Part shown: in pieces, positions 7,280 through 41,300 of the stretch
How the letters are laid out: each line of letters begins with the position of its first letter
Numbering within the stretch: position 1 is the first letter of the stretch
Assembly: GCA_001767435.1 (NCBI GenBank)
Contig: MEKT01000039.1
Coordinates: forward strand, 1-45,892
Source of the DNA: Acidobacteria bacterium RIFCSPLOWO2_02_FULL_65_29
GTDB lineage: Bacteria; Acidobacteriota; Vicinamibacteria; Vicinamibacterales; CAVVIG01
Direction of reading: 5' to 3'
DNA: 45,892 nt
Translations under genes and position numbers: made by a program
Notes under the pieces: generated by a model
Told to the model about the DNA's origin: nothing
The model's input: only the letters and a program-made list of their open reading frames with translations
The model's database searches: none

Positions 7280-7987
7280 GTGACGAGGTGTGGTGTCCTT
7301 GCGTGCATGCTTGCAGTCTGCACCCTTGGCTTAGCGCAGCCTGTGGTGGCGCAGAACAACGCCGGGGAGCTGTCCGTAGGCTACTCATTTCTGGCCAACG
7401 ACGACCTGGCCGTGAACCAGAAGAATCTGCCTTTGGGTTTCTTCTTCGATTCCGCTTTCGAGCTGAACGACTGGATCTCCATCGCGGGCGACCTGACCGG
7501 TCATTTCAAGCGTGGCATCGAGCCGAGCGCCTCCTTGGACCGAGTGGTCCCGCCGATTCAGACCCAGGACTTTCAGGCGTTTTCGTTCAACCGGCCGGAG
7601 ACCGGGTTCTGTTCGCCTCGTCTTCAGGACTGCAAAGTCCACATCCAGACGATCAGCGCGGTTGGCGGCCCGCGGTTCCATGTGCCGGCCGGGCGCGCGA
7701 GGCCGTTCGTCCATATCATGGCGGGGGCGACCCGCTCGCTCCGGAAGATCGAATTCTTCGGCCACACTTCGACAAATCTCACCATCCAGCCGGGCGGCGG
7801 GATCAGCGTCGACGTGACAGACTTCACGGCTATACGCATCCAGGGCGATTATCGGCGCGTATTCTTCCCCGAGCCCGACCAGACCAAGCCGGGAGACTTC
7901 CCCTCGCTGGTGAGTAAGGATGGCGCCGATTATCAGGATTTCACGATCTCTGTCGGTGTGGTCTTCAAGCTCGGTGAACGGCCGTGA
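7280..7987 (+). CDS. Outer-membrane beta-barrel protein
   Basis: A 235-residue exported protein of unknown specific function. It starts at a GTG preceded by GGAAGGAG at 6 nt. A signal peptide ends near VVAQ (residue 25), followed by alternating hydrophobic strands (ELSVGYSFL, ISIAGDLTG, FTAIRIQGDYR) and a C-terminal strand FTISVGVVFKL, which looks like an outer-membrane insertion signal although it is followed by GERP. Two cysteines in a mid-loop (FCSPRLQDC) could form a disulfide. It lies 56 bp upstream of the receptor gene and probably shares its transcript. It is similar in layout to, but not clearly homologous with, the barrel gene at 30216. Confidence 0.8.
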   Translation: MTRCGVLACMLAVCTLGLAQPVVAQNNAGELSVGYSFLANDDLAVNQKNLPLGFFFDSAFELNDWISIAGDLTGHFKRGIEPSASLDRVVPPIQTQDFQAFSFNRPETGFCSPRLQDCKVHIQTISAVGGPRFHVPAGRARPFVHIMAGATRSLRKIEFFGHTSTNLTIQPGGGISVDVTDFTAIRIQGDYRRVFFPEPDQTKPGDFPSLVSKDGADYQDFTISVGVVFKLGERP

Positions 7988-8043
7988 CCCCGTTAGGTTT
8001 TCGACGACATTCTTGGCTCGCTTTCAAGCAGGGAGGTAAAGGC

Positions 8044-11000
8044 ATGAGATCCGGGAAGGCTCTCGTCGCTGTTTCGTGCCTGTTGTTGGTGCCCGCCACG
8101 GCGGCGGCCCAGAGCTCAATTGCCGGCCGAGTCACCGACAACACCGGCGGCGTGCTGCCGGGCGTGACGGTAGAGGCCGCCAGCCCCGCGCTCATCGAAG
8201 GGACGCGCGCGGCTGTCTCCGACGGCAATGGTCAGTACCAGATTACCGATCTTCGGCCCGGGGTCTATAAGGTCACCTACACGCTGACCGGGTTTACCAC
8301 GCAGGTGCGCGAGGAGCTCCAGCTCCCGGCCGACTTCGCGATGACCATCAACATCGTCATGTCGGTTGGTGCCGTCGAAGAGACCGTGACGGTCTCGGGC
8401 TTATCGCCCGTGGTCGACACGCAGACCGTGCGCCGCACCGAAGTGCTGTCGCGCGAGCTGCAGGAAGAGCTTCCCACCGGGCGCGCCCTCTGGTCGTACG
8501 CGGTGCTCATGCCGGGCGTCCGGATTGGCCGGCCCGACGTGGGCGGTACCTCCGGGCACCAGCAGGTCGGCATAGAGGGCGCCGGGGCCGCGGGGGCTCA
8601 ACGGGACAGCGTGTACGAGATCGATGGCCTGGACATCAGCATGTACATCGGGGACAACTGGATGCCGTACCTCAACCCGATGCTGATAGCCGAAACGTCG
8701 TTCACCACCGCGGGGATCGGCGCCGAGTCGCAGCGCGGCGGCGTGCGCATGAACATGATCCCGAAGGAAGGTGGGAACAGAACCAGCGGCAGCTTCTTCC
8801 TCGGCGGCAGCCCGTCGCCCGGCTGGCAGTCCGATAACTGGACCGAGCGGCTAGGCGATCTCGGGGTCCAGTCGAAAAAGGCGGGCGACGCGCGGGACGG
8901 GATCCCGCACATCGACAGGCTCTACGATCTCAACTTCGAGATCGGCGGCCCAATCTTCCAGGATCGCTTGTGGTATCACGCCTCGTCGCGCCGCCTCGTC
9001 GTCAACAACCAGGTGCTCAACAGCGTGAAGCGCGACGGGAGCAAGGGGCTCGACACCAACAGCTTGACGGACGCTGGCGTGCGCCTGACCTGGCAAGCCA
9101 GCCCGAGCAACAAGCTTTCCGCCGGGTTCGACAAGCTGCGGAAGCGGCGGTTCACCCAGCACGAGGCGGGAACGGACGTGGATACGGCGTCGACGTCCTG
9201 GACCTCCCCCCACTACGACACCGGGACAGCGAAGTGGACGTCGACGGTCACCAATCGCCTGTTGGCCGAGTTCGGCTTTTCGCTGTCGTACCAGGATTGG
9301 GACCCGAGCTATCAGGAGGGCATACGGCGGCAAGTGCCGGCCGCGTTCGAGCCTTGTTTCGCCACGCCGTGCTTTCCGGCCGTCGGCTCACCGGCCGCTC
9401 TCGCGCAAATGGACCGCGACGGCTGGTACGGCGTCGTCAATCGCAACGACGCATGGCTGGGCCTGCAGTACGGTGCGGCCGCCAACGAAACAGAAAACTA
9501 TCCGCATGCGTGGAGTTACAAAGGGTCGGTTTCGTACGTGACCGGCTCGCACAATATCAAAGTGGGGTTCCAGAACAAGTGGGGGAACCAGCGGCGTAAC
9601 CGAAACAACAATGCCAACCTCATCCAGCTCTATTCCAGTGCTCCGAGCCCCTTTGGCCGGCAGCTGGACTTCGTGGATGCCGATCATTTCGGCGCCGCCC
9701 AGAGCCTGGCCCGCGGGCTGCCGCCGGGCCTGATCGGCACCCCCAACCAGGTCACTGTCTATAACAACCCGGTGACCGCGCGGGGTGACGTCGAGTACGA
9801 CCTGGGCATTTTTGCGCAGGACTCGTGGACGGTGAACCGGTTGACGATCGGCTTAGGCCTGAGGATGGACCTCGCGCAGCCAGGGGTGCCTGAAAGCCCG
9901 AACCTCCTCGGCCGGTTCAAACCCGCAAGCACGTTTGCGGCAGTCGACCTGCCGCGCCTGGGCCCGGACTTCAGTCCGCGGCTGAGCGCGGCGTATGACC
10001 TGTTTGGCAACGGGAAGACGGCGCTGAAGGCCGGCTGGAACCGGTACATGTCGGTTATCGCGGACGCCATACCGAACCGCTTTGCGCCGGCGTTTTTGGC
10101 GCAAGAGAACCGGCCCTGGTTCGACCTTGCCCTCAACCCGGCCACCGGCGCACTCCATCCCGGCTGTACTCTTGCCAACCCCGCGACGTGCCCCAACCCG
10201 TATGGAACCAATGGCGACGACATCGCGCAGGACTGGGAGATTGGCCCGACCGCCAATCGCAACTTCGGCGTCCGGGCGACCAACCGGATCGACCCGGACA
10301 TCCAGCGGCAGTACAACGACCAGTGGTTGGTGGGCGTCCAGCACGAGCTCATGTCGGGCGTGTCGGTCAGCGGGACCTACCGCCGCCGATCCGACAAGGA
10401 GGTCTGGACTGCCAGCAGTTTCGGCGTGCTGCAGACGTTGGGCGACAACGTGCTACGGACCTCCGAGAGTTTCACCGGCTCCTCGGACGTCGCCCGTCCG
10501 GCCCCATACGCCGGGTCGATCCGGATCTTCAACATCGACCCTGCGCAGCGTGCGGCTCTCGATGTGCTGGATCGGAACGCGGCTCCTGGGTCGTACTCGT
10601 TGGTCTACGGCAGTTTCGATGTGGCCGTCAGTGCCAGGCTGCCGGGCGGGGGGAGACTCGTCAGCGGCTGGACGGTCGACAGGACCGCCGAAGACAAATG
10701 TCAGGACGTGCTGGACCGGGGTGACGATCCGAACGACCTGCGGTTCTGCAACCAGAATGCGTATCCGCATCCGTACGTGCACGAGATCAAGCTCTCGGGC
10801 AGCCTGCCGTGGTCCCTGCCCAAGGTGGGCGAGTTCAACACGGGCTTCGCGATCCTCGGCGTGCCCGGCGATGGGCTGGGCGAAGCGCTCAGATACAGCA
10901 ACAGCACCGCGATCAACAACCAGACGAGGTACCAGGGACCGTTCTACACAGTGGAGAACTGCGTGGCGCCGTGCGTGCTCAACGGCCGCATGGTAGGGGG

Positions 11001-11313
11001 CGCGACGGTCGGCACGAGCCCCTCCCAGTTCGATGCCACCATGCTGCCCGTGGACAGCGTGAAGTTCTACCCGAGGCTGACGCAGGTCGACTTCAACATC
11101 GCGAAGGTCTTCCGCATCGGGAGCTGGCGCTACGATGTACGCTTGGAGGCCTTCAACCTGTTGAACAACTCCGCCGATCGGACCCACGCCGGGGCGGCTC
11201 TCAACCGCGGCTTGGGCACGTCCGTGGGCGCACAATCGTTGACGCTCTACGAGCGAGCGACCAATATCATCGACGCGCGCGTCCTCCGCTTCGCCGTGAC
11301 CGGGCGCTTTTAG
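8044..11313 (+). CDS. TonB-dependent receptor with N-terminal carboxypeptidase-regulatory-like domain (receptor A)
   Basis: A large outer-membrane transporter of about 1089 residues of the Oar/SusC-like type used for import of oligomeric nutrients or siderophores. The ATG at 8044 has AGGGAGG upstream and starts a signal peptide ending in TAAAQ; the frame is open to 7984 but that start would bury the signal. The Ig-like CarboxypepD_reg domain (SIAGRVTDNTGGVLPGVTVE...) spans about residues 24-110, then VEETVTVSG resembles a TonB box. The plug covers about 120-255 and the barrel runs to the terminal ARVLRFAVTGRF. It shares general architecture with receptors B and C but is about 110 residues longer. 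The substrate is unknown. Confidence 0.92.
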   Translation: MRSGKALVAVSCLLLVPATAAAQSSIAGRVTDNTGGVLPGVTVEAASPALIEGTRAAVSDGNGQYQITDLRPGVYKVTYTLTGFTTQVREELQLPADFAMTINIVMSVGAVEETVTVSGLSPVVDTQTVRRTEVLSRELQEELPTGRALWSYAVLMPGVRIGRPDVGGTSGHQQVGIEGAGAAGAQRDSVYEIDGLDISMYIGDNWMPYLNPMLIAETSFTTAGIGAESQRGGVRMNMIPKEGGNRTSGSFFLGGSPSPGWQSDNWTERLGDLGVQSKKAGDARDGIPHIDRLYDLNFEIGGPIFQDRLWYHASSRRLVVNNQVLNSVKRDGSKGLDTNSLTDAGVRLTWQASPSNKLSAGFDKLRKRRFTQHEAGTDVDTASTSWTSPHYDTGTAKWTSTVTNRLLAEFGFSLSYQDWDPSYQEGIRRQVPAAFEPCFATPCFPAVGSPAALAQMDRDGWYGVVNRNDAWLGLQYGAAANETENYPHAWSYKGSVSYVTGSHNIKVGFQNKWGNQRRNRNNNANLIQLYSSAPSPFGRQLDFVDADHFGAAQSLARGLPPGLIGTPNQVTVYNNPVTARGDVEYDLGIFAQDSWTVNRLTIGLGLRMDLAQPGVPESPNLLGRFKPASTFAAVDLPRLGPDFSPRLSAAYDLFGNGKTALKAGWNRYMSVIADAIPNRFAPAFLAQENRPWFDLALNPATGALHPGCTLANPATCPNPYGTNGDDIAQDWEIGPTANRNFGVRATNRIDPDIQRQYNDQWLVGVQHELMSGVSVSGTYRRRSDKEVWTASSFGVLQTLGDNVLRTSESFTGSSDVARPAPYAGSIRIFNIDPAQRAALDVLDRNAAPGSYSLVYGSFDVAVSARLPGGGRLVSGWTVDRTAEDKCQDVLDRGDDPNDLRFCNQNAYPHPYVHEIKLSGSLPWSLPKVGEFNTGFAILGVPGDGLGEALRYSNSTAINNQTRYQGPFYTVENCVAPCVLNGRMVGGATVGTSPSQFDATMLPVDSVKFYPRLTQVDFNIAKVFRIGSWRYDVRLEAFNLLNNSADRTHAGAALNRGLGTSVGAQSLTLYERATNIIDARVLRFAVTGRF

Positions 11314-11564: not shown

Positions 11565-13520
11565 ATGAACGGGCGCTTGTGCTCCAGCGCAACCGCTGGA
11601 ATTCTCCTTGTCGTTCTTGGCTCCGGAGGGCCCGGCGTCATATCCGGGCAACCGCCCGGCAACGCGGGCGCGGCTAAGCCGTGGTCGCACGGCGGAATTC
11701 GACACGCTGGTACGCAATCGGGCCGTGCGAGCACGGCTAGTGAAGCGTGGTTTACCGATCGGGCCAAAGAGGCGGGGCTCGACTTCGTCCACTTCAACGG
11801 GATGTCGGGCGAGCTCTATATCAGCGAGATCATGGGCGCGGGCGGCGCCCTGTTCGACTTCGACAACGATGGCGACCTCGACATCTATCTCGTGCAGGGC
11901 CAGACGCTCGGCCCGGGAAGGATATTGGATGACGCCCTGGTCGCGCCCCAGGCGTCGCTGCCGCTGACGGATCGGTTGTATCGGAACGACCTCGTGGTGC
12001 ACGCCGATGGGACTCGCACGCTGCGCTTCACGGACGTCACGAAAGGGAGCGGCCTGGTTGGGCGCTCCTACGGCATGGGCGTCGCAGCGGGTGACTTCGA
12101 TAACGACGGCCGGGTCGACCTGTATCGGACCGCTTTGGGGCCGAACCAGCTGTTTCGCAACAATGGCGACGGGACGTTTACGGACGTCTCAGACCGAACG
12201 CGCACGAGCGACCCCCGGTGGAGTGTGTCGGCGTCGTTCGTCGACATCGACCGCGATGGCTGGCTTGATCTCTACGTCGGCAACTACCTCGACCACAGCG
12301 TCGACGAGAGGATCCGCTGCTACACCCGCACGGGTAAGAGGGACTACTGCGGGCCCCGGAGCTACACGCCCGTTCCAGACCGGTTGTATCGAAATCGTCG
12401 GGACGGGACGTTTGTCGACGCGACCGCCGAGGCGCAGGTGGCGCGTGAGTATGGTCCGGCGCTCGGGGTTGTGGCGGCTGACTTCAATGCCGACGGCTGG
12501 CCGGATATCTACGTGGCCAACGACGGCGAGCCGAACCTCTTGTGGATCAATCAGCAGAACGGCCGCTTCCGAAACACCGCGCTCCTGGCCGGTGCGGCGC
12601 TCAACGGCCTCGGCAGCGCCGAGGGCAGCATGGGGGTTGACGCTGGCGACTTCGACAATGACGGAGACGAGGACCTCTTCATGACGAACCTCGTCGGGGA
12701 AACCAACACCCTCTACGTCAACGACGGCTCGGGCCTCTTCGAGGATCGGACCGCGCGGGTGGGCCTCGGGGTCCCAAGCCTGCCCTACACGGGATTCGGG
12801 ACGGCGTGGTTCGACTTCGACAACGACGGCTGGTTGGACCTGCTGGTCGCGAACGGCGCGGTCCGGATCCTGGAAACCCTTTCCCGCGCGACGGATCCGT
12901 TTCCGTTGCACGAGCGCAACCAGCTGTTTCGCAACCTGGGCACGGGGCCGTTCGCGGGGTCCCCAGCGCGCCCTTCGACCCTTCGACAAGCTCAGGGTCG
13001 CCCCGAGCCAGGTCGAGGGACGACGAGCTCAGGGCGTCCTGAGCCTGCCGAAGGACGGCAGCCGCGCTGGGGTGCCTTCGAAGACGTCACGGCGCGAGCG
13101 GGCGCCGTGTTCGAGCTGTCGGAGGTCAGCCGCGGCGCGGCATTCGGGGACGTGGACAACGACGGCGACGTCGACGTGCTGGTGACGAACAATAACGGTC
13201 CGGCACGCCTGCTGATCAACCATGTCGGCCAGCGCAACCGTTGGGTTGGGCTGCGGCTGGTCGGGGGACCGGAGCGCCGAGATATGCTGGGCGCGAGAGT
13301 GGGCGTCTTTCGTAACGAGGGCCCGCCGCTTTGGCGTCGCGCGCGAGCCGACGGGAGCTATGCTTCGGCGAACGATCCACGGGTCCTGGTGGGCCTGGGC
13401 AGTGCGACGACGGTTCCGCGCATCCGCGTAGTGTGGCCGAGCGGTCGTGCTGAAGACTGGACGGACGTTGCGGTTGGACGGTGGATCACGCTGACAGAAG
13501 GCAGCGGGGTGGGCCGTTGA
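11565..13520 (+). CDS. CRTAC1-family FG-GAP / ASPIC-UnbV beta-propeller protein (copy A)
   Basis: An exported 651-residue protein. A signal peptide (residues 1-29) is followed by a repeat-derived stretch, then integrin-like FG-GAP/VCBS repeats with Ca-binding DxDxDG loops (DFDNDGDLD, DIDRDGWLD, DFDNDGDED, DFDNDGWLD, DVDNDGDVD), and a C-terminal ASPIC/UnbV domain with RWVGLRLVG, LGARV and RIRVVWPSG. Such proteins are probably extracellular Ca-stabilised adhesion or scaffold proteins. About 36 residues (near 466-500) are encoded by a hairpin repeat and are missing in paralogue B (21429-23231). It is followed by the TPR gene with overlapping ends and then the copper-monooxygenase gene. No clear ribosome site precedes the ATG. 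Confidence 0.9.
   Translation: MNGRLCSSATAGILLVVLGSGGPGVISGQPPGNAGAAKPWSHGGIRHAGTQSGRASTASEAWFTDRAKEAGLDFVHFNGMSGELYISEIMGAGGALFDFDNDGDLDIYLVQGQTLGPGRILDDALVAPQASLPLTDRLYRNDLVVHADGTRTLRFTDVTKGSGLVGRSYGMGVAAGDFDNDGRVDLYRTALGPNQLFRNNGDGTFTDVSDRTRTSDPRWSVSASFVDIDRDGWLDLYVGNYLDHSVDERIRCYTRTGKRDYCGPRSYTPVPDRLYRNRRDGTFVDATAEAQVAREYGPALGVVAADFNADGWPDIYVANDGEPNLLWINQQNGRFRNTALLAGAALNGLGSAEGSMGVDAGDFDNDGDEDLFMTNLVGETNTLYVNDGSGLFEDRTARVGLGVPSLPYTGFGTAWFDFDNDGWLDLLVANGAVRILETLSRATDPFPLHERNQLFRNLGTGPFAGSPARPSTLRQAQGRPEPGRGTTSSGRPEPAEGRQPRWGAFEDVTARAGAVFELSEVSRGAAFGDVDNDGDVDVLVTNNNGPARLLINHVGQRNRWVGLRLVGGPERRDMLGARVGVFRNEGPPLWRRARADGSYASANDPRVLVGLGSATTVPRIRVVWPSGRAEDWTDVAVGRWITLTEGSGVGR
11664..11732. repeat. 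About 69-bp inverted repeat, right copy (in frame in CRTAC1-A)
   Basis: This is the inverted partner of 11319-11386. It encodes the low-complexity stretch between the signal peptide and the first conserved motif (WFTDRAKEAGLDFVHFNG). The two copies enclose a 277-bp segment including the start codon. Confidence 0.75.
12970..13061. repeat. In-frame REP-like double hairpin in CRTAC1-A
   Basis: CTTCGACAAGCTCAGGG pairs with the following CCCCGAGCCAGGTCGAGG, and GAGCTCAGG pairs with CCTGAGC; both are typical halves of the widespread CTTCGACAAGCTCAGG extragenic repeat. Here it is translated into the STLRQAQGRPE and SSGRPEPAEGR type peptide. The paralogue B sequence passes directly from RRTG to GFEEVTDRAG, marking an empty site. 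Confidence 0.9.
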
Positions 13521-15199
13521 GCGGTCTCGTGGTGGCGTTTGTGCTGCTCGCACTGGGCCACGGCCGCGCGGCGAGTGTCGCCACGCACAGCACCGCGGCG
13601 CAGGTGATTACGGCTGAACCGACCCTCCTGCCGGTCGCGCTGCCCGACCTCAGTGGCATGCACGCGTCGGTCCGGGAGCAGCTTCGTGAGGCGTACGCCT
13701 CGCTGATGACGCTGCAGCCAGAGACTGGCGTCGAGCCGCCTGTTTCAGAGCCGCCACGAGGCGACCGCAGCGAGGCCTACGGGGAGTTGGGCAAGCTCTT
13801 GATGGCGGCGAAGTCTCTGGACGTGGCCGAGCGCTGCTTTCGGAATGCGCAGACGCTCGCCCCAGACGATTTCCGCTGGCCCTACTACTTGGGACACGTC
13901 TTCATCAGCCAAGGGGAACTGTCAAGAGCGGTAGAGCGCTTCGAGCAAGTGCTCCGCCTCCGTCCCACGGATTTCCCGACGCTGGTGTGGCTCGGTCATG
14001 TCCACATCGAGTTGGGTCAGCCGGAGGCGGCCGAGCCGGTCCTGACCAGGGCCCGCGCCCTCGGTCCAGACACCGCGGCCGTGTTGTACCAACTGGGCAG
14101 GGCCAGCCTTGCGAAGAGAGACTACGCGGCCGCCGTGCGGCATCTGGAAGAGGCCGTGCGGCTGAACCCCGCTGCTGTGGTCATCCGCAACCCTCTGGCG
14201 ATGGCCTATCGTGGCCTCGGCGATCTCGAAAAGGCGCAGTCCAACCTCGACCGAACCAGGGGTCGCGCGGGTCCCGGGGCGGCCGTGACGATGCCCGATC
14301 CGTTGATGGCCGAGGTGAGCACTGTGCTGCGGAGCCCAGAAGTCCACGGGGAGCTCGGACAGCAGGCCAGTGCCAGGGGAGATTGGCCGGAGGCCGCGAG
14401 GCAGTTCCGGAGGGCCATTGAGCTGTCGCCGGACAACGCGATCATGCGTCTGAACCTCGCCTTGACGTTGAACCGCATGGGCGAGGCGCGGGCCGCGCTG
14501 ACCGAGCTCGACGCGGCGATTCTCGCGGATCCCTCTCTCGCCAGCGCCTACTTCGTGATGGGTACGCTGCTGGAGCGGAGTGGCCGCGATCAGGAAGCGA
14601 TCGATCGGTATGCCGCTGCCATCATGCGCGACCCCGGGTTCCGAGTGGCGCACCTCAGGCTCGCCGACGCGCTCCGCCGAATCGGCCGCCTCGAAGCATC
14701 ACTGTCGTCCTACCAGCAGGTTCTCGAGCTCGAGCCGGATAGTCAAGAGGCGCGCTTCGGCGAAGCGATGGCCCTTGTGCGCCTGTCGCGCCACGCGGAC
14801 GCCCGGGAGCGCTTCCACGGTGCGATGAGCGTCCATCCTGACCAGCCGGCGTTCCCGCAGGCGCTGGCGCGTCTCCTGGCCGCGTCTCCCGACCCGCAGG
14901 TGCGCGACGGCCAGCGGGCACTCGACTTGGTGCAAGCGTTGGCGAAGGAGCAGAAGACCACGAGCGTGGCCGAAACGATGGCCATGGCGCTCGCGGAGGT
15001 TGGTCGCTTCGCGGAGGCGGTCGAGTGGCAACGCCTGGCGATGTCGGTCGCGGTGGAGGCCGGACACCCTGCCGCCGCGCAGCGGATGGCTGCCAACCTG
15101 GCGCTTTACCTGCGACACGAGCCCTGTCGCACGCCCTGGCGAGACGATGATCCAGAATACAGGCCGGGCCCTGAAGTAGAACCAGGGCTTCTGCGATGA
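13481..15199 (+). CDS. Exported TPR protein (copy A)
   Basis: A protein of about 572 residues made almost entirely of tetratricopeptide repeats after an N-terminal hydrophobic segment (LVVAFVLLALGHG). It is likely a periplasmic or surface scaffold. Conserved features shared with the paralogue at 19810-21432 are an N-terminal PVALPDLS motif, a DDFRWPYYLGH motif after the first repeat and the C-terminal NLALYLRHEPCRTP motif. The GTG at 13481 gives a basic n-region (RRQRGG) to the signal peptide. The alternative TTG at 13517 overlaps the CRTAC1 stop as TTGA, mirroring the GTGA overlap in the paralogous module; the choice is unresolved. It ends with ATGA overlap into the copper-monooxygenase gene (15196-15199). 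Confidence 0.88.
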   Translation: MDHADRRQRGGPLSGLVVAFVLLALGHGRAASVATHSTAAQVITAEPTLLPVALPDLSGMHASVREQLREAYASLMTLQPETGVEPPVSEPPRGDRSEAYGELGKLLMAAKSLDVAERCFRNAQTLAPDDFRWPYYLGHVFISQGELSRAVERFEQVLRLRPTDFPTLVWLGHVHIELGQPEAAEPVLTRARALGPDTAAVLYQLGRASLAKRDYAAAVRHLEEAVRLNPAAVVIRNPLAMAYRGLGDLEKAQSNLDRTRGRAGPGAAVTMPDPLMAEVSTVLRSPEVHGELGQQASARGDWPEAARQFRRAIELSPDNAIMRLNLALTLNRMGEARAALTELDAAILADPSLASAYFVMGTLLERSGRDQEAIDRYAAAIMRDPGFRVAHLRLADALRRIGRLEASLSSYQQVLELEPDSQEARFGEAMALVRLSRHADARERFHGAMSVHPDQPAFPQALARLLAASPDPQVRDGQRALDLVQALAKEQKTTSVAETMAMALAEVGRFAEAVEWQRLAMSVAVEAGHPAAAQRMAANLALYLRHEPCRTPWRDDDPEYRPGPEVEPGLLR

Positions 15200-17286
15200 G
15201 CCGTGCCGCGCGTTTCGGCGCTTCGCGATCGATCCTAACGGCGGGATTGTGTCTCGCGGCCGGTGTGCTCGCGGCAAGCGACGCTCCTGGCGCGGCTGGG
15301 CAAGCGCGAGCTGAAGCCGTCACCTTCAGCCGCGATATCGCGCCCATCCTGTTCGAGCACTGTGTGGTCTGCCACCGGCCAGGCGCGGTGGCACCAATGT
15401 CCCTGATGTCCTATCAGGACGTCCGGCCGTGGGCTCGGGCCATCGGAGAACAGGTCAGCTCGCGGAGAATGCCACCCTGGAAGCCCGAGCCCGGCTATGG
15501 CGGCCCGTTTGTCGGTAGCCGCCGGCTGAGTGACGAGCAGGTCGCGCGCATCCAGCGGTGGGTGGCCGAGGGCGGCGTTGAAGGCAATTCCGCCGATCTC
15601 CCTCCAATGCCGGAGCGGCCCGCCGGGTGGCGCCTCGGCAAACCGGACCTCGTCCTCGAAATGCCGCTCTACACGCTTCCGGCTAGCGGAAAGGATGTCC
15701 TCCGCAAATTCGCGATCCCGATTCGGATCGCCGGCACCAGGTATGTGAGAGGGCTGGAGTTTCAGCCGGGGAATGCCAGAGTCGTGCATCACGCGAACAT
15801 GAAGATCGATCCCACAGGGACCTCACGCAGGCTGGACGACGCCGACGCGGAGCCAGGCTACGAAGGGGTGACGCCGTTCGCCGCCCGGTTCCCGTCAGGC
15901 TACTTCCTCGGCTGGACGCCCGGGCAGCTGCGGCCTCTAGCTCCCGACAGCATGGCCTGGCGTTTGGACCCCGGGGCTGCCATGCTGCTCGAGCTCCACC
16001 TGACGCCAGGCGAACAGCCGGAGCGCGTGCAGAGTCGGATCGGGTTCTTCTTCACTGACGCGGCACCCACACGCATCCCGGCCACCATCAGGTTGGGCCG
16101 GCAGAATCTCGACATCCCGGCAGGCGCGAGGGAATATGTGAGCCGTGATCGCTATGTCCTGCCGGTGGACGTCGAGGTGTACGGGGTCCAGCCGCACGCG
16201 CACTACCTGGCCAGGGAGGTCAAAGGATTCGCCACGCTCCCCGATGGGACGCGGACGTGGCTCATCTACATCAATGATTGGGATTTCGACTGGCAGGACT
16301 TCTACGCGTACGCAAAGCCGTTCGTCCTTCCCAAGGGAACCGAGCTCGCGATGGAGATCACGTACGACAACTCCGCCGGCAACCGGCGCAACCCGCATTC
16401 TCCGCCGAGGCGTGTCAGCTGGGGTCAGAAGTCCTCGAACGAGATGGGGGACTTGTGGATTCAGGTCGTGCCGCGCAAGGCCGCGGATCTCGCAATCCTC
16501 AACAACGACCGCTGGCCACGAGAGGTGGCCGAAGATATCGTGGGATTCGAGATGGTTTTGGAAGAGGACCCGGATCAGGTGATGCAGCATGACGAGGTGG
16601 CGCTCCTGTACCTGCAAGTCGGGAAAGTCGCGGAGGCCGTGGCGCACTTCAGGGAGTCGGCGCGATTGCAACCAGAGTCCGCAGTCGCGCAGTACAACCT
16701 GGGAACCACGGTGTTGCGGCTGGGAGATGCCGAGACGGCCATTCGCCACCTCGAACAGGCGCTACGGCTGGACCCCGAGTATGTCCGGGCGCACAACGAC
16801 CTGGGCGCGGCGCTGCGATTGCAGGGGAAGTCGGCAGAGGCCATTCGTCATTTCCGCCAGGTACTGCTGGCACGCCCGGACGAAGGCGACGCGCTCTACA
16901 ACCTGGCGAGCGCGCTGACGGTGGAGGGTGAGCTCGAGGAGGCGATCATCTACTATCGACGCGCCCTCCAGGTTCAGCCGGATGCCTCGGCGGCGCTCGC
17001 GGAGCTCGCGTGGCTGCTGGCCACACACCCGAACGCGAGATTCCGGGACCCGAGTCAAGCCGTCCGCCTGGCGGAGCGTGCGTCTCGCGTGACCCAGCGT
17101 CGGGACGCCGCCGTTCTCGACGTGCTGGCCGCGGCCTACGCCGTGGCGGGCCAATTCGACCGAGCCGTAGCGGCGGCTCGCGCGGCGCTCGCCGTGCTCC
17201 CTGCCAGCCAGAGTGAGCTTGCCGCCTCGATCCAGCGCCGCCTGGATCTCTACACGACGGGCCGTCCGTACCGCGGGCCACGGTAG
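15196..17286 (+). CDS. Cytochrome c / PHM-type copper monooxygenase / TPR fusion (paralogue A)
   Basis: A 696-residue exported protein with three parts. First, after a signal peptide, a monohaem cytochrome c-like domain with C56-V-V-C59-H60 and a likely distal Met92 in MPPWKP. Second, a copper type II monooxygenase (PHM-like) core in which all six expected ligands are present: H198-H199 (VVHHAN), H268 (LELHLT), H334 and H336 (QPHAHY) and M417 (NEMGDLW). The spacings (69, 66 and 81 residues) are close to those of peptidylglycine monooxygenase (64, 70 and 70). Third, TPRs from about residue 455 to the end. Apart from the haem cysteines and one in the signal peptide there are no cysteines, so the disulfides of animal PHM are absent. 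It is coupled to the TPR gene by an ATGA overlap. The substrate is unknown. Paralogues start at 36716 and 39438. Confidence 0.88.
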   Translation: MSRAARFGASRSILTAGLCLAAGVLAASDAPGAAGQARAEAVTFSRDIAPILFEHCVVCHRPGAVAPMSLMSYQDVRPWARAIGEQVSSRRMPPWKPEPGYGGPFVGSRRLSDEQVARIQRWVAEGGVEGNSADLPPMPERPAGWRLGKPDLVLEMPLYTLPASGKDVLRKFAIPIRIAGTRYVRGLEFQPGNARVVHHANMKIDPTGTSRRLDDADAEPGYEGVTPFAARFPSGYFLGWTPGQLRPLAPDSMAWRLDPGAAMLLELHLTPGEQPERVQSRIGFFFTDAAPTRIPATIRLGRQNLDIPAGAREYVSRDRYVLPVDVEVYGVQPHAHYLAREVKGFATLPDGTRTWLIYINDWDFDWQDFYAYAKPFVLPKGTELAMEITYDNSAGNRRNPHSPPRRVSWGQKSSNEMGDLWIQVVPRKAADLAILNNDRWPREVAEDIVGFEMVLEEDPDQVMQHDEVALLYLQVGKVAEAVAHFRESARLQPESAVAQYNLGTTVLRLGDAETAIRHLEQALRLDPEYVRAHNDLGAALRLQGKSAEAIRHFRQVLLARPDEGDALYNLASALTVEGELEEAIIYYRRALQVQPDASAALAELAWLLATHPNARFRDPSQAVRLAERASRVTQRRDAAVLDVLAAAYAVAGQFDRAVAAARAALAVLPASQSELAASIQRRLDLYTTGRPYRGPR

Positions 17287-17324
17287 CGAAGCCTCACCTC
17301 GAACCACGGTTTTCGATTCCCTGT

Positions 17325-17444
17325 AGTCGACAGTCGACAGTTCACAGTCGACAGGTTTTTCACAATGCTGTAGTGTCCGCCTTTAGGCGGACCGGGCGCG
17401 AAGTCCGGCTAAAGCCGGACACTACGTGCTACGGCGTTGTGAAA
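17325..17444. terminator. Nested palindromes between convergent genes
   Basis: After a short ACAGTCG heptamer run (17325-17354) come two hairpins, GTCCGCCTTTAGGCGGAC (17375-17392) and GTCCGGCTAAAGCCGGAC (17403-17420). They are enclosed by longer arms, TTTTTCACAA...GTAGTGTCC and GGACACTAC...TTGTGAAAA. The position between the stops of the monooxygenase (17286) and GT39/TPR-1 (17450) suggests a bidirectional terminator, but the same palindrome family also occurs in frame at 19070-19087, so it is primarily a repeat element. Confidence 0.65.
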
Positions 17445-17449
17445 ATGCT

Positions 17450-19840
17450 TTAGCGGGCGGCGCGTGCCGCGCGCAAGCGCCGTTCCATCTCCGGGTTCCC
17501 GGGCGCAAGGCGCGTCGCCTCTTGATAATGTTGGATCGCGTCCTCCAGCTTGTCCTGGATCTGAAGGGCCATCGCGAGGTTGCCGTGCGCCTCGGCGAAC
17601 CCTGGCGTCAGCCGGATCGCCTGCCGAAAATGGTTGACCGCGTCATCGAGCTGGTTCTGCCGCGCCAGCATGACGCCCAGGTCATTGTGCGCGCTCGCTG
17701 ACTCCGGCACGAGCTCGACCGCGCGACGGGAGTGGATCAGGGCCTCGGCGAAGACTCCCGCCTGCTCGAGCGTGGACGCGAGGTTCATGTGCGTATCCGC
17801 CAAGTCGGGCTCGATCGCCAGGGCTCGCCGAAACAGCTCTATCGCTTCGTCGAGTCTGCCCTGCGCCGCCAGGAGCAGACCAAGATTGTTGACGGCTTCG
17901 ACGCCATCGGGGCTGAGCTCGATCGCCCGGCGATAGTGATCGGCCGCCTCCTCGGTCTGTCCGAGCGCCGCCAGCGCGTTCCCCAGATTGAGGTGCGCCT
18001 CGGTCAACCCCGGCTCGATCCGCACCGCTTCCCGAAACTGAGCGGCGGCGTCCACGATCTTCCCCTGGGCCATGAGCGCATTCGCGAGGTTGTAGTGGCT
18101 GTCGGCGTCGTTCGGGGCGAGATCCAGCGCCGTCCGATGCTGAGCGATCGCCTCGTCCAACTGCCCGTTGGCCGCGAGGGCGGTGCCGAGATTGCTGTGC
18201 GCGAGGGCGTCGTTGGGGTCGCGCGCCAGCGCCGCGCGATAGAGCACGATGGCCTCGTCGAGCTTGCCCTGCGCCTGAAGCTCGGTGCCGACATTGGCCT
18301 CCGTGATGGCCCGCATCTCCGCCATCGAGTAGATGGGCCAGTTGCAGAAGGCGGCGAAGACGATTGCCGCTGCCGGGCCCGAGACCAGCCGCCGCGGTGT
18401 CGCCTGCAGGAGCCGGCCGGCGTTCGCCACCCCCGCCGAGGCAAAGAGGATCAGGAACGGCACCAGCGGATACCGGTATCTCGCCATGACGGCGAAGGCG
18501 ATGAGCGCCAGCACATACGCGGCCGGCAGGAGATACAGCAGCGTCAGCTCGGCTCGTCGTTGCCACGTTGCCCAAATGCCGAACAAGGCCAGGGGCGCCA
18601 GGACCCCGAAGTGCCAGACCCGGCTGGCGACGCGCAGCAGGACCGACCAGTCGGCGTAGCTGAGCTGATCTTCGGTGTCGGCCACTTCCGCCGCGTTCCA
18701 GGCCAGCATGATCTTTCGCCCCATCAGCTCGAGCCAGTCTCCCGGCTGCGTCCGGATGTATTCGAGCGCGCGCCACGTCCAGTACCGGGATACCTCGGCC
18801 GGGGTCATCTGTCGGCCCATCGCCTGCTGGGCGAGTTCCATGGCGTCTTGACGCTCGTACTTGGGATCGCCATGACCGAATCGCAACGGCTCGTACGTGC
18901 CTGAGGCGGTCTCATTGTTCCCGATGTAGAAGTTCGGACCGAACTGCGACGTCGTCAGATGAAATTCACCGCTGACGAGTTTGTTCCGTGCCGCAACCGG
19001 CAGCAGGACGATCGCCAGCCCCAGGACGAACGCGCCCGCCTCGGCCATGCGACTCAGTCTCGCTGTGGTGTCCGGCTTTAGCCGGACCTTGGGGCGGAGC
19101 ACGATCCACAAGACGATCACTGCCACGAAGACCATCGCGTTCTCGCGGGAGAGCGCGAGGCCTCCCATGGTGAGACCGAGCGCGAGCCAGATCCTGCTTG
19201 AGCTGCCCCGAATCCGGCTAGAGCCGGATCCTACATTTGGAGGTGTTGAGCTGTGGCCCGCCTGACCTCGCTGCCCTGCCTGCCTTGCCTGTTGTGCCAG
19301 CCCGATGAGCAGGCTCAGCAGCGCGAGCGCCAGGCACAACAGGAACGCGTCCAGCACCGATTTCTGAATCAGGCCGTCGAAGAAGATGGCGGGAGCATAG
19401 AAGGCCAGCATCAGCCCGGCGGCGATTCCGGCCGGCTTCGAGAACAGACGCCAGGCGGCCAAGGCAAGCCACACGCAGGCGAGCGAGCCGATGACGGCCT
19501 GGCACAGCCGTACGGTCATCGGCGCCTCGCCGAGCAGCGTGTACACGAGCGCGAGGAAATAGGGATAAAGCGGTGCCTGGTAGAAGACGTCGCTGCCGAT
19601 CCAATCGCCGGCCGCGATCTGCTGCGCCCATGCGTGGTAGCTCTGCGCGTCGCCCATCAAGAGCGTGAAGAACGGCGCCCGTCGAATCTGGAACAGATGC
19701 ACCAGGCGGACGGCCAGGCTGACGAGGAAGATGGCAACCGCGAAGGGGAGGAAGGTTCCTTTTGGCGTCAGGGCGATCGTGGATTGAGAGGGGACGCTGG
19801 CGGGGGCGGTCAAGCAGGCTCCCTCAAAGGTGTTCGACAC
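17450..19840 (-). CDS. GT39-type membrane glycosyltransferase fused to TPRs (GT39/TPR-1)
   Basis: A 796-residue protein. The N-terminal half has about ten hydrophobic helices of the GT-C (PMT/ArnT-like) type, including RRAPFFTLLMGDAQSYHAWA, whose Asp in the first outer loop is the usual catalytic/metal site, then [14 protein letters not shown] and [15 protein letters not shown]. From about residue 500 there are roughly eight canonical TPRs. By family it should transfer a sugar from a polyprenyl-phosphate donor to an exported acceptor, with the TPRs choosing or docking the acceptor; this is inference. The GTG at 19840 overlaps the upstream TPR gene by 31 bp; a TTG at 19813 overlapping the TGA is an alternative. 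Repeat-encoded insertions lie in two loops. Confidence 0.88.
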   Translation of the reverse strand: MSNTFEGACLTAPASVPSQSTIALTPKGTFLPFAVAIFLVSLAVRLVHLFQIRRAPFFTLLMGDAQSYHAWAQQIAAGDWIGSDVFYQAPLYPYFLALVYTLLGEAPMTVRLCQAVIGSLACVWLALAAWRLFSKPAGIAAGLMLAFYAPAIFFDGLIQKSVLDAFLLCLALALLSLLIGLAQQARQAGQRGQAGHSSTPPNVGSGSSRIRGSSSRIWLALGLTMGGLALSRENAMVFVAVIVLWIVLRPKVRLKPDTTARLSRMAEAGAFVLGLAIVLLPVAARNKLVSGEFHLTTSQFGPNFYIGNNETASGTYEPLRFGHGDPKYERQDAMELAQQAMGRQMTPAEVSRYWTWRALEYIRTQPGDWLELMGRKIMLAWNAAEVADTEDQLSYADWSVLLRVASRVWHFGVLAPLALFGIWATWQRRAELTLLYLLPAAYVLALIAFAVMARYRYPLVPFLILFASAGVANAGRLLQATPRRLVSGPAAAIVFAAFCNWPIYSMAEMRAITEANVGTELQAQGKLDEAIVLYRAALARDPNDALAHSNLGTALAANGQLDEAIAQHRTALDLAPNDADSHYNLANALMAQGKIVDAAAQFREAVRIEPGLTEAHLNLGNALAALGQTEEAADHYRRAIELSPDGVEAVNNLGLLLAAQGRLDEAIELFRRALAIEPDLADTHMNLASTLEQAGVFAEALIHSRRAVELVPESASAHNDLGVMLARQNQLDDAVNHFRQAIRLTPGFAEAHGNLAMALQIQDKLEDAIQHYQEATRLAPGNPEMERRLRAARAAR
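19070..19087. repeat. GTCCGGCTTTAGCCGGAC palindrome in frame
   Basis: The palindrome encodes part of the peptide PKVRLKPDTTA in a loop of GT39/TPR-1. It is identical in type to the intergenic palindromes at 17375-17420. Paralogue GT39/TPR-3 has no insertion at this loop. Confidence 0.85.
19212..19229. repeat. ATCCGGCTAGAGCCGGAT palindrome in frame
   Basis: This palindrome lies in the loop following the LLIGLAQ helix of GT39/TPR-1. The same loop in the two paralogues carries the unrelated GGGCAAA heptamer array (26209-26277 and 35989-36036), so the loop tolerates different repeat families. Confidence 0.8.
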
Positions 19841-21432
19841 GGTTTGCGCTGTTCGTACAGTGCAAGGTTGCGGGCCATGAGTCGGGCCAGGTCAGCACGC
19901 CCAGCCTGCTCGGCGGCGGCGATCGCCCGATGCTGCCAGCTGACGGCCTCGTCGTACCTCCCCAACTCGGCCAGCGTCATGGCCATCGTCTCGCGGACAT
20001 CACCGCGCGGCGGTCCTTTGAGCAGCTCTTGCATCAGCGCCATCGCCTGATGCCCATCGCGAACCTGATCGTCTGGAGCCGCAGCGAGAAGGCGGACCAG
20101 AAGGTCTGTCAGCTCCGGTTCGTCCGGATGAACGCGCCTGGCCTCGCTCAGCCGGTCTCGGGCTTCCCGATAACGCTCCAGATGAACCAGCGTCATCGCG
20201 TACATCACCCACGCCTCGGCGAGGCTCGGATCGAGCTCGACGATGCGCTGGAAGTGGGGCAGCGACTCCTGAAGACGCCCGGTGACGCGCAGGGCCTCGG
20301 CCAGACCGAGCCGCGCCTCCAGATAATCCGGCTGGTACTTCACGGCGGCCGCGAAGCGCTCGATCGCCTCGGCATGGCGGCCCTTCAGATTGAAGACCAT
20401 GCCGAGGCCGAAATGCGCCCTTGGGAACTCTGGCGCCAACCGCAGGGCCCGTTCGAACTGCTGTACGGAGCCGGCCGTGTCGCCCGCCATGAACAACGCG
20501 GTACCCAGCCTGTGGAACAGCCCCGGGTCATCCGGTGCCAGCTCCAGACCTTTGCGGAACAGATCGGCGGCCTCCTTCACCTGCCCGCTTTCCAGCGCTC
20601 GCAGCCCTTGGGTCTCGTAGGTCAACGGGCTGTGCAGCACGGCCTCGTAGGTCTCCATGAGCGGATCGTGCGGGACCGGCCGCCCGCTTCCCCGCCGCTC
20701 CACGTGCGTTCTGGCCCGATCAAGCTGGCCTAAGCCGCGGTAGGCCGCCGCCAGGGAGTAGTGCAGGCCGAGTGCCCGCGGCTCCGCCGCCAACGCCCGC
20801 TCCAGATAATCGATGGCGCGTGCGAGATCGTGTTTCGTGAGGGCCGCACGCCCGGCGCCCGAGAGTGCCGCGGCGGAGCTGGGATCCCGCGACAAGGCCT
20901 GAAGGAACAACGGCTCGGCTTGGTCCGGCCGGTCCTGATCGAGGTACATCTCCCCGAGCCAGATCAGCGTCGGCGTGTCCGCCGGCTGCAAGCCCAGGGC
21001 CCGCGAGAAGAACTCAGCCGCCTTGGCCGCCTCTCCCTTGATCCGGTAGAGGTGCCCGAGATAGTAGGGCCATCGGGCATCGTCTGGGACCAACGCCTGC
21101 GCGGTCAGATAGCAGGACGCCGCCGCGTCGTAGTACTCGACGGCCATCAGAATCAGGCCCAGCTCTCCGTACGCATCGCCGAGCTCGGCGGGCGGCGTGG
21201 TCCGGCCCTCGAGTTTGGCCATCAGTGTCGAGTGCCGCTCGCGCACCTGCGCTTGAACCGACGTGGCCAGTCGCGACACGTCGGGCAGCGCGACGGGTTG
21301 CGCCGCCTCGGCCCCTCTTTGCCGAGAGCCTGGAGCAGAGACAGATGTCGCCAAACCGTCGTCGGGAGCACACCCGCCGGCCAACGTGGCGAGCACGCAC
21401 GTCAGGGCCATGAAACCGGCACGGCCCGTCAC
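19810..21432 (-). CDS. Exported TPR protein (copy B)
   Basis: A 540-residue paralogue of the TPR gene at 13481-15199, with the same PVALPDVS, DDARWPYYLGH and C-terminal NLALYEQRKPCRTP motifs. The N-terminus MTGRAGFMALTCVLATLAGGC ends in a likely lipobox (LAGGC), so this copy is probably lipid-anchored. About ten TPR units fill the rest. The GTG start at 21432 overlaps the CRTAC1-B stop by 4 bp (GTGA, 21429-21432). The end overlaps the GT39/TPR-1 gene, so the three genes form one translationally coupled unit. Confidence 0.9.
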   Translation of the reverse strand: MTGRAGFMALTCVLATLAGGCAPDDGLATSVSAPGSRQRGAEAAQPVALPDVSRLATSVQAQVRERHSTLMAKLEGRTTPPAELGDAYGELGLILMAVEYYDAAASCYLTAQALVPDDARWPYYLGHLYRIKGEAAKAAEFFSRALGLQPADTPTLIWLGEMYLDQDRPDQAEPLFLQALSRDPSSAAALSGAGRAALTKHDLARAIDYLERALAAEPRALGLHYSLAAAYRGLGQLDRARTHVERRGSGRPVPHDPLMETYEAVLHSPLTYETQGLRALESGQVKEAADLFRKGLELAPDDPGLFHRLGTALFMAGDTAGSVQQFERALRLAPEFPRAHFGLGMVFNLKGRHAEAIERFAAAVKYQPDYLEARLGLAEALRVTGRLQESLPHFQRIVELDPSLAEAWVMYAMTLVHLERYREARDRLSEARRVHPDEPELTDLLVRLLAAAPDDQVRDGHQAMALMQELLKGPPRGDVRETMAMTLAELGRYDEAVSWQHRAIAAAEQAGRADLARLMARNLALYEQRKPCRTPLREPA

Positions 21433-23231
21433 CGTCCTTCACCTTCCCTCAACGTCGTGTACCGATCGGCGGGCACCTCGGACCACGTTTCCACACGCCC
21501 GCTCGGCCAGGTGACCCGAACCCGCACGAGATCGGCGGACTCGCCCAGGCCGACGAGCACGCGCGGATCGTTCGCCGACGCGTAGCTCCCGTCGGCCCGC
21601 GCGCGGCGCCAAGACGTGGAGCCGTTCGTCCGCATGACGGCCACGCGCGCGCCGAACATGTCACGGGGCGCGGGCCGACCGACCAGCCTCAAGCCCAGCC
21701 AGTGGTTGCGACTGCCGATCTGGTTGATGAGCAGTCGAGCGGGCCCGGCCGCATTGCCGATCAAGACGTCCACGTCGCCGTCGTTGTCGATATCGCCGAA
21801 CGCTGCCCCGCGACTCACTTCCGACAGCTGGAACACCGCACCGGCGCGGTCCGTGACCTCCTCGAATCCTCCGGTGCGCCGGTTGCGGAACACCTGGTTG
21901 CGCTGCTGCAGCGGAAAGGGATTGTCGGGGCCGAGCGCCTCCAGATTCTGCGTGACGTAGCCGTTGACGGCCACGATGTCCAGCCAGCCGTCGTTATCGA
22001 AGTCTATCCAGGCGGTACCGAAACCGGTATAGGGAAGGCTCGGAACGCGGATGCCCTGCCGCGCGCTCTGGTCCTCGAATAGGCCCGTGCCGGTGTTGAC
22101 GTGGAGCGTGCTGGCCTGACCGGTCAGCTCCGTGATGAACAGATCTTCGTCGCCGTCGTTGTCGAAGTCGCCGGCGTCGACCCCCATGTTCGCCTTGAGC
22201 TCTCCGTTCGCACCCACCGCCACGCCCCATAACAACGCCATGTTTCGAAAGGTGCCGTCCTGCTGGTTGATCCACAACTGGTTTTCCTTCTGGTCATTGG
22301 CGACGAAGATGTCGATCCACTGGTCGCCGTTGAAATCGGCCGTGGCGACGCCGAGCGCGGGCCCGAACTCCCGCGCCAGGCCGGCGGCGGCGGTCACGTC
22401 CACGAACGTCCCATCGCCCCGGTTCCGATAGAAGCGACTCGGCTGCGCGCGATGCACGTCGGGCGGACAGTAGTCCGGCGGCCCGGAACGGTTGAAGCAC
22501 GACGTGGCCGCCTCGAGCGTGTAGCTCAGATAGTTCCCCACGAACAGATCGAGCCATCCGTCCCGATCGATGTCCACGAATGAGGCAGAGACGCTCCAAG
22601 AAGACGGATTGTCGGTTCCGGATCGCGACGAGATGTCGCTGAAGGTGCCGTCGCCCTTGTTCCGGAACATCTGGTTGCGCCCGAATCCGGTGAGATACAG
22701 GTCGACCCAGCCGTCATTGTCCACGTCCCCGGTGGCCACGCCCATGCCGTATCCGCGGGGATTCAGTCCACTGTGCTCGGTCACATCCGTGAAGTGCAGG
22801 CTCGCTCGCTCTCCGTGGCCCCCCAAGTCGTTCCGATACAGCCGATCCGTCAGCGGCCCTTTCGGCGGAGCGAGCAACGGCTGCCCGGTCCCGAGCAACC
22901 CTCCCTGCACGAGGTAGACGTCGAGGTCGCCATCGTTGTCGTAGTCGAACATCGCGACGCCGGGCCCCATGATCTCGGGTTGATAGAAGCGCCCGGACAT
23001 GCCGTTGAAATGGACGAAGTCGATCCCCGCCGCCGCCGCCCGATCGACGAACCACTCCCCGTTGGGCGCATCCGGCCGGACGGCGGACGCTCGGTCCGCG
23101 GCGTTCGAGGGTCGCGGTTGTTCCGCAGCTGGCGCGGCGGGCCTGGACGTGCAGGAGGCCGCTCCGCCACACAGGACCAACAGGAGGAACAGCGGCGCGC
23201 CGGGCGAACGGTCTTGCGGTCTCACGCGCAC
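21429..23231 (-). CDS. CRTAC1-family FG-GAP / ASPIC-UnbV protein (copy B)
   Basis: A 600-residue paralogue of 11565-13520 on the opposite strand. The N-terminus LFLLLVLCGGAASC reads as a lipoprotein signal. Propeller repeats carry Ca-loop motifs (DYDNDGDLD, DVDNDGWVD, DIDRDGWLD, DFDNDGDED, DIDNDGDVD) and the ASPIC/UnbV domain ends in RVRVTWPSG. It has neither of the two repeat insertions of copy A and so records the ancestral form. It is first in the CRTAC1 > TPR > GT39/TPR unit. GTG codons at 23231 and 23225 are both possible starts, and neither has a strong ribosome site. Confidence 0.9.
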   Translation of the reverse strand: MRVRPQDRSPGAPLFLLLVLCGGAASCTSRPAAPAAEQPRPSNAADRASAVRPDAPNGEWFVDRAAAAGIDFVHFNGMSGRFYQPEIMGPGVAMFDYDNDGDLDVYLVQGGLLGTGQPLLAPPKGPLTDRLYRNDLGGHGERASLHFTDVTEHSGLNPRGYGMGVATGDVDNDGWVDLYLTGFGRNQMFRNKGDGTFSDISSRSGTDNPSSWSVSASFVDIDRDGWLDLFVGNYLSYTLEAATSCFNRSGPPDYCPPDVHRAQPSRFYRNRGDGTFVDVTAAAGLAREFGPALGVATADFNGDQWIDIFVANDQKENQLWINQQDGTFRNMALLWGVAVGANGELKANMGVDAGDFDNDGDEDLFITELTGQASTLHVNTGTGLFEDQSARQGIRVPSLPYTGFGTAWIDFDNDGWLDIVAVNGYVTQNLEALGPDNPFPLQQRNQVFRNRRTGGFEEVTDRAGAVFQLSEVSRGAAFGDIDNDGDVDVLIGNAAGPARLLINQIGSRNHWLGLRLVGRPAPRDMFGARVAVMRTNGSTSWRRARADGSYASANDPRVLVGLGESADLVRVRVTWPSGRVETWSEVPADRYTTLREGEGR

Positions 23232-23633: not shown

Positions 23634-24422
23634 TTGAAAGTCTCCATCGTCATCCCCGTCTACAACGAGCGTCCCACGCTTGCCGAGGTCATCCGGCGCG
23701 TCGTCGCCGCACCGCTGCCTCCGGGATGCGAGCGGGAAGTGATCGTGGTCGACGATGGCTCGACCGATGGGACGGGCCCGCTCCTCGACCGCCTGCTCGT
23801 GGGCGGCATCGTGGTCGCCCATCACTCTGTCGTCAACGTCGGCAAGGGCGCCGCGCTTCGAGCAGGCATCGCGCGCGCGACAGGCGACATCATCATCGTT
23901 CAGGACGGCGACCTCGAATACGACCCCAGGGACTACCTGCGAATTCTGGCGCCGATCGTCGACGGATCGGCCGAGGTCGTCTTCGGGTCTCGTTTCATGA
24001 AGGACGTCAGAGCGGCGAACGTCAAAGGCGTGAAATGGCCGAACTGGATCGCGAACCGCATCCTGACAATTGCCGCCAACCTGCTGTTCGGCGCTCGAAT
24101 CACCGACGAAGCGACTGCCTACAAGGCCTTTCGTGCAGCCGTCATCAAGAGCATCCATCTCCGCTCGGTTCGGTTCGAGTTCTGCCCGGAGGTCATCGCC
24201 AAGCTTCGGCGGCTGGGCTACGTCATTCACGAGGTGCCGATCGGTTACAACGCGCGCAGCGTCCAGCAGGGGAAGAAGATCCGGTATCGCGACGGCCTCG
24301 AGGCGTTGTGGACCCTTCTGAAATACCGCTGTGTGTCGCGTCGGTCCTTCACCGTCGGGATTATGCCGGTCACGGCCGAGGGCGCGGCGACAGCCGATCG
24401 CGGAGCTGACGCGCGGCCGTGA
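23634..24422 (+). CDS. Glycosyltransferase family 2 (DPM1/polyprenyl-phosphate sugar synthase-like)
   Basis: A cytoplasmic 262-residue GT-A enzyme: [11 protein letters not shown] at the start, [20 protein letters not shown], the metal-binding QDGDLEYDP motif, and FGSRF. The lack of transmembrane segments and the overall length match dolichol-/polyprenyl-phosphate mannose or glucose synthases. The only in-frame start after the upstream TGA is TTG at 23634, directly abutting a heptamer array and lacking a Shine-Dalgarno. It converges on and overlaps GT39/TPR-2 by 53 bp. Inference: it makes the lipid-linked sugar used by the neighbouring GT39 enzymes. Confidence 0.9.
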
Positions 24423-27018: not shown

Positions 27019-27146
27019 GAGGCGTTTCATACAGTTACCAGCCGACAGCCTTCCGTTTTCCTTCCGCTTTCGCCCGTCTTCTTCTTTCCAACTCGAGCTC
27101 GCGCGTAGTGTCTCGCTCTGGTCGCAGCAGTGAAGGAGGCATGAAG

Positions 27147-34099: not shown

Positions 34100-34103
34100 G
34101 TTA

Positions 34104-34224
34104 GTCGATAGTCGATAGTCGATAGTCGTTAGTCATTTGTCCTGAAGTCGTTAGTCGTGACGCCGTTGGTCGTCTAGTCGAGGACGCCTTCTCGACTAAC
34201 GACTAGCGACCAACGACTAACGAC
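34104..34224. repeat. TAGTCGT heptamer arrays forming a long inverted repeat between convergent genes
   Basis: Units of TAGTCGA and TAGTCGT run from 34104 to about 34175 and then reappear as the complement (CGACTAA, CGACTAG) to 34224, so arms of about 34 bases could pair. The array runs into GT39/TPR-3: its last residues (KSLVVGR) and TAG stop are repeat-encoded. Confidence 0.88.
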
Positions 34225-36566: not shown

Positions 36567-36595
36567 GTCCGAGCAGGTCCCGCTATGCTAGCATC

Positions 36596-36715
36596 GGATT
36601 TCGGGATTCGGGACTTGGGACTCGGGGCTCGCCGCCTTCGCGCCGAAGGCGCTTCGGCGTGCCGCGCCGTAGCTCGCCTGCATTCGAAGCGAGCGGAGGC
36701 GGGGGGCTCGGGACC
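36596..36715. repeat. GGGACTC/GGGATTC array plus GTAGCTCGCCTG element
   Basis: A short GGGATTC/GGGACTT/GGGACTC run (36596-36630) is followed at 36668-36710 by an element GTAGCTCG.CTG...GCGAGCG.AGGCGGGG. Both parts recur together, in reverse order, at 43561-43642. The segment is the leader of the next monooxygenase gene. Confidence 0.7.
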
Positions 36716-38797: not shown

Positions 38798-38815
38798 AGG
38801 GCAAAGGGCAAAGGG
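38797..38815. repeat. Short GGGCAAA array between genes
   Basis: Two and a half heptamer units, directly after the monooxygenase B stop codon. Confidence 0.8.
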
Positions 38816-38832
38816 CGTGCTAGGCTAATTCC

Positions 38833-41288: not shown

Positions 41289-41300
41289 CCGGCTCTCTAG

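Follow-up and report, generated by a model that had tools for sequence, protein, structure and literature searches.

In the SusC/SusD pairs of the Bacteroidota, a receptor-like barrel with an N-terminal CarboxypepD_reg domain lies beside helical-repeat surface lipoproteins, and many paralogous loci occur in a single genome. Acidobacteriota are abundant soil bacteria, and most of their many outer-membrane proteins (OMPs) and secreted repeat proteins have no assigned role. We describe a stretch of 45,892 nucleotides (the window) from Acidobacteria bacterium RIFCSPLOWO2_02_FULL_65_29, contig MEKT01000039.1, in which a CRTAC1 gene is followed by a gene for a tetratricopeptide repeat (TPR) protein of the PCRTP type, here called T. 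This pair is present twice, as module A on the plus strand and, facing it, module B on the minus strand. Together with an adjoining OMP, it resembles the SusC/SusD loci in the features given above; it differs in that T consists entirely of TPRs coiled into a superhelix, the unit includes a CRTAC1 propeller, and TonB dependence is proposed by analogy. The location of CRTAC1-T next to one OMP receptor family suggests an undescribed surface accessory module in Acidobacteriota. A second point of comparison is the CRTAC1/ASPIC-UnbV family, including human CRTAC1 (PDB 9etn), which shares an FG-GAP calcium-blade propeller and UnbV_ASPIC domain with the window proteins and matches them directly in sequence, whereas the bacterial proteins are mostly paired with a TPR gene and often lipid-anchored. 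In the part of the published literature covered, no paper was found that puts bacterial CRTAC1 together with TPR or SusD, and one study merely lists an ASPIC/UnbV gene among paralogs (PMC3174227).

Conservation of the pair was assessed with a profile built from the two window TPR proteins, and open reading frames of relatives were called with a codon-score method suited to high-GC contigs. Matches to T were identified in 19 of 60 related genomes, all of them among the 37 UnbV-positive genomes (hypergeometric p ~9e-6, phylogeny ignored). Of the 54 T genes whose upstream neighbour is visible (de-duplicated loci), 50 have a same-strand CRTAC1 gene directly 5' of them, which overlaps T in 18 cases. 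Co-evolution was also observed: the T tree mirrors that of CRTAC1 (Mantel r=0.88, 45 pairs, 0 of 2000 permutations as high), a correlation that is partly due to physical linkage and shared species history. When 297 genomes of the phylum were scanned for more distant homologues, CRTAC1 was found upstream on the same strand in 11 of 19 loci and adjacent in any orientation in 15 of 19; the linkage therefore loosens with distance. Furthermore, CRTAC1-T pairs are present in two Planctomycetota loci (L015, L016), and fusions of an N-terminal TPR to FG-GAP/UnbV occur in the same genome. The conserved, portable CRTAC1-TPR pair proposed in a preliminary description of the window is borne out by these results, as related genomes searched for CRTAC1 followed by a PCRTP-type TPR gene keep the two together.

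Two further arrangements were noted. A conserved triad in five loci (L099, L100, L102, L103, L104) comprises a TPR protein of ~900-980 aa (777 aa and partial in L099), a CRTAC1 of ~570 aa and a TPR-FG-GAP-UnbV fusion of ~1180 aa. In L023 (G047:C233), CRTAC1-A-type and T-A-type sequences share one 975-aa open frame without a stop; this was not counted as a fusion, because the two are separated by a stretch resembling a signal peptide and lie on a short contig.

The strongest partner of the CRTAC1-T pair is an Oar/SusC-like OMP subfamily, which had been missed in the preliminary description. Across four T-bearing genomes, 13 of 17 T genes have a member of the OMP profile no more than 6 kb away, compared with an expectation of 3.4% for each. 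The OMP frequency around T peaks at gene positions -2 to -4 and +1 and is 0-9% more than five genes away once positions represented by very few genes are disregarded. A tree of 84 OMPs places the 33 T-neighbour OMPs, with the exception of two (L007_4, L149_8), in one clade, which contains none of the 20 sampled background OMPs. The same clade also holds most OMPs neighbouring the GT39 and copper monooxygenase genes considered below; these enzyme-associated OMPs fall mostly into a subclade, and the OMP directly 5' of module A (7984-11313, plus strand) groups with it. Its Pfam matches, OMP_b-brl_4 (7e-33) and CarboxypepD_reg (1.3e-15), correspond to the architecture of a SusC/Oar-like barrel with CarboxypepD_reg.

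On the plus strand, module A consists of CRTAC1-A (11565-13520) and TPR-A (13517-15199), and on the minus strand module B consists of CRTAC1-B (21429-23231) and TPR-B (19810-21432). Identity is 57% over 643 columns between the CRTAC1 proteins and 43% over 506 columns between the TPR proteins, confirming that the first two genes of each module are paralogous and in the same order. Both CRTAC1 proteins belong to the UnbV_ASPIC family in Pfam (51.2 and 56.9 bits, cut-off 23.4) and match FG-GAP_3 (154 and 168 bits). CRTAC1-A carries seven DxDxDG-type motifs, and seven calcium motifs were counted in 35 of 48 CRTAC1 proteins; CRTAC1-B matches the human structure 9etn in sequence. TPR-A and TPR-B are composed of TPR over their whole length, and the structure model of T-B (predicted local distance difference test, pLDDT, 91) is a TPR superhelix whose top PDB folds are OGT and designed TPRs. 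The RWPYYLGH and PCRTP motifs are common to both modules, as first described; the RWP part is invariant in 16 homologues and a PCR-type C-terminal motif is present in 43 of 63. The overlapping stops and starts could be read directly, as TTGA at 13517 between CRTAC1-A and TPR-A (for which a start at 13517 is likelier than at 13481), ATGA at 15196 between TPR-A and the third gene, and GTGA at 21432 between CRTAC1-B and TPR-B. TPR-B also overlaps its own third gene by 31 bases (19810-19840).

The two modules differ in their signals. CRTAC1-A is predicted to be secreted, with no lipobox found, while TPR-B and CRTAC1-B carry a lipoprotein signal and a lipoprotein-type signal, respectively. By a simple lipobox rule and a simple start choice, which make the counts rough, a lipobox is present in 33 of 55 T and 28 of 40 CRTAC1 proteins of clade B and in 1 of 8 T and 1 of 8 CRTAC1 proteins of clade A. 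Presence and absence follow the same clades for T and CRTAC1, so both partners switch anchoring together. T-A and T-B occupy separate clades of the T tree and modules A and B derive from separate ancient clades; a recent duplication as their origin was rejected for this reason.

These data bear on one alternative, namely that common secreted repeat families have been duplicated locally and cluster by chance, without a joint function. All the families are large in these genomes, and the window itself has three copies each of OMP, GT39 and copper monooxygenase. The idea is nevertheless very improbable and for the pair largely refuted, given the 50/54 linkage, the overlapping genes, the mirrored trees, the separate ancient clades of the modules and the specific OMP clade.

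We tentatively favour, at somewhat less than an even chance, a reading in which CRTAC1-T is the accessory or binding part of a dedicated receptor-like OMP in the envelope. Ligand capture as a role would fit the OMP linkage, the exported nature of the proteins and their TPR and propeller binding folds. CRTAC1 and T would be co-translated and exported as a two-protein assembly of a calcium-blade beta-propeller and an all-TPR superhelix, usually lipid-anchored, with both partners of the A clade released by an ordinary signal peptide. In this putative complex, presumably located at the outer membrane, the propeller and TPR coil may together provide a surface on which a protein, peptide or glycan ligand docks and is captured before being passed to the OMP receptor, possibly in a TonB-dependent manner. 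CRTAC1-T may thus be a functional analogue of SusD rather than a member of its family. The idea of T as a SusD homologue found no support: the Pfam scan gave no SusD family, and the 50 best PDB fold matches include no SusD chain.

Several observations weigh against this reading. No such OMP lies near four of the 17 T genes, and T lacks a CRTAC1 neighbour in L059, L139/L140, L141, L146 and L147. CRTAC1 likewise occurs without T, as only 2 of the 10 UnbV sites in this genome have one. Because the background OMPs in the tree were the top-scoring ones in Pfam, their choice is biased toward the canonical family, and the chance values take no account of the shared ancestry of the genomes. Pfam detected no plug domain or TonB motif in the OMP (no plug family at E<=1e-3; the SusC/RagA model reached only 2e-4, far below its cut-off), and TonB dependence therefore rests on analogy.

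The third genes of the modules are a copper monooxygenase in module A (15196-17286, plus strand) and a GT39-like glycosyltransferase with a TPR tail in module B (17450-19840, minus strand; PMT_2 plus TPR in Pfam). The preliminary description took the third gene to be swapped for a different enzyme, on a CRTAC1-TPR platform that recruits TPR-tailed enzymes. Third genes do vary across loci, but they are mostly absent or unrelated: within 350 bp 3' of T on the same strand (n=55), no gene was found in 24 cases, other families in 14, CRTAC1 in 6, OMP in 5, copper monooxygenase in 3, and T, another TPR protein and GT39 in one each. Among the other families, a SurA/DsbA-like protein, a VWA protein and a multiheme cytochrome were identified. 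Recruitment is not supported, since most pairs have no TPR-tailed enzyme as third gene and the enzymes also form clusters of their own in genomes that lack UnbV. GT39-TPR adjoins the pair in 1 of 67 loci, only in this window. For the copper monooxygenase, 14 of 67 loci have a copy no more than five genes from T, against ~3.5% expected from an estimated per-gene density; several of these loci are related. The third genes are thus not purely random, the copper monooxygenase being mildly enriched and GT39 unique to the window. As recruited cargo, GT39 was rejected, having a cluster of its own, and the case for the copper monooxygenase is weakened. In a different bacterial family, two copper monooxygenases and an OMP stand between two CRTAC1-T modules (L137/L138, G106:C80:103000-138000), an arrangement resembling that of the window.

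The copper monooxygenase combines an N-terminal CxxCH c-type heme motif, a domain like that of peptidylglycine alpha-hydroxylating monooxygenase (PHM) and a C-terminal TPR region. The pLDDT of its structure model is only 65; its best PDB match is PHM (E 6.6e-12), and the top 31 matches are all PHM or dopamine beta-hydroxylase (DBH). Forty-six homologues all share H198, H199, H268, H334, H336 and M417, and the heme motif is kept in the 44 with residues at that position. By motif and spacing, we take the six invariant residues to be the PHM copper ligands (His-His-His; His-x-His plus Met). The Pfam Cu2_monoox_C score falls below the cut-off (20.7 against 23 bits), so the enzyme is named PHM-like, as a divergent branch; fold and ligands agree, which settles the weak score. 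Fold and all six ligands are shared with PHM and DBH, whereas the N-terminal heme and C-terminal TPR set the window enzyme apart. This heme-fused, TPR-tailed family (15196-17286, 36659-38797 and 39438-41288 in the window) has many copies per genome in this bacterial order, and no paper on a heme-fused PHM was found in the literature covered.

The peptidylglycine hydroxylase fold, the enrichment of the monooxygenase near T and the recurrence of paired modules around two such enzymes in G106:C80 would suit a protein-modification platform, as raised in the preliminary description, in which CRTAC1-T presents secreted or surface proteins to the monooxygenase and GT39 for hydroxylation or glycosylation. 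The union of GT-C and TPR, which resembles the TMTC1-4 O-mannosyltransferases (PMC7801869), points the same way; two window proteins (17450-19840 and 41354-43564) have a membrane GT-C-like N-terminus and a C-terminal TPR, a likeness by architecture only and in bacterial proteins. We consider such a platform unlikely, as most pairs have no such enzyme, GT39 stands beside the pair only here, the enzymes cluster together in genomes without CRTAC1, and the 14 copper monooxygenase loci are phylogenetically non-independent.

A comparably doubtful proposal is that CRTAC1-T scaffolds the folding or maturation of envelope metalloenzymes or of the adjoining barrel. Redox and folding partners do recur, including a SurA/DsbA-like gene that in one clade overlaps T, the copper monooxygenase and the multiheme cytochrome, and a CRTAC1 gene flanked by hydrazine-synthase-like genes has been reported (PMC12758564). 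These partners are heterogeneous and missing from most pairs, however, and the genome-wide OMP set is far larger than the set with CRTAC1-T. The SurA-like/DsbA-like gene (~450 aa) follows CRTAC1-T in L055, L075, L076, L077, L082, L084, L085 and L133, and overlaps T in several of them.

GT39-TPR and copper monooxygenase-TPR form their own conserved divergent cluster, independent of CRTAC1-T. A divergent copper monooxygenase lies immediately upstream of GT39-TPR in 13 of 20 other GT39 loci with visible neighbours, and the arrangement is present in three genomes (G005, G008, G020) without any UnbV gene. In the window, the canonical cluster at 31-43.5 kb (31175-43564) begins with an OMP of the enzyme-associated subclade (31175-34099, plus). 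It continues with the third GT39/PMT_2-TPR copy (34203-36566, minus), divergent from the second copper monooxygenase-TPR (36659-38797, plus). A redoxin-like protein (38833-39441, plus; weak AhpC/TSA match), which recurs in the enzyme cluster, the third copper monooxygenase-TPR (39438-41288, plus) and the TMTC-like multi-pass GT-C/TPR protein (41354-43564, plus), a homologue of which adjoins GT39 in L114/L115, complete the cluster. Between module B and this cluster lie the second GT39/PMT_2-TPR copy (24370-26847, minus; 48% identity to the first) and another OMP of the enzyme-associated subclade (27141-30077, plus). The six module genes thus stand at the positions first given; the account had left out the OMP at 7984-11313 and counted once the GT39-TPR and copper monooxygenase-TPR genes that each occur three times. 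In-frame repeat-like insertions (TLRQAQGRPEP...) were also observed in coding sequence at ~12990-13080, 19100 and 26250, possibly dispersed short repeats read in frame.

Given the independence of the enzyme cluster and the mild enrichment of the copper monooxygenase near T, the two systems have an OMP clade in common and in some cases lie near one another, and neither simply recruits the other. With CRTAC1-T as an OMP accessory, the copper monooxygenase, redoxin and GT39-TPR genes would be a second cluster that draws on a sister subclade within this OMP family, probably processing the ligand or modifying envelope components, and the interleaving of the two systems may give the window its mirror-image look. 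A bolder and rather improbable version is an undescribed outer-membrane system of Acidobacteriota and some Planctomycetota, in which a calcium-propeller/TPR-coil lipoprotein complex replaces SusD beside the OMP and is in some cases coupled with a heme-fused PHM-like copper monooxygenase, by which an imported or surface-bound substrate is oxidised.

The conserved OMP-CRTAC1-TPR unit offers a definite, testable complex and a possible SusCD counterpart outside Bacteroidota. A second lead open to testing is the adjoining group of heme-fused PHM-like enzymes, in which every copper ligand is intact. Additionally, the CRTAC1-T loci make it possible to study the role of CRTAC1-type propellers in bacteria.

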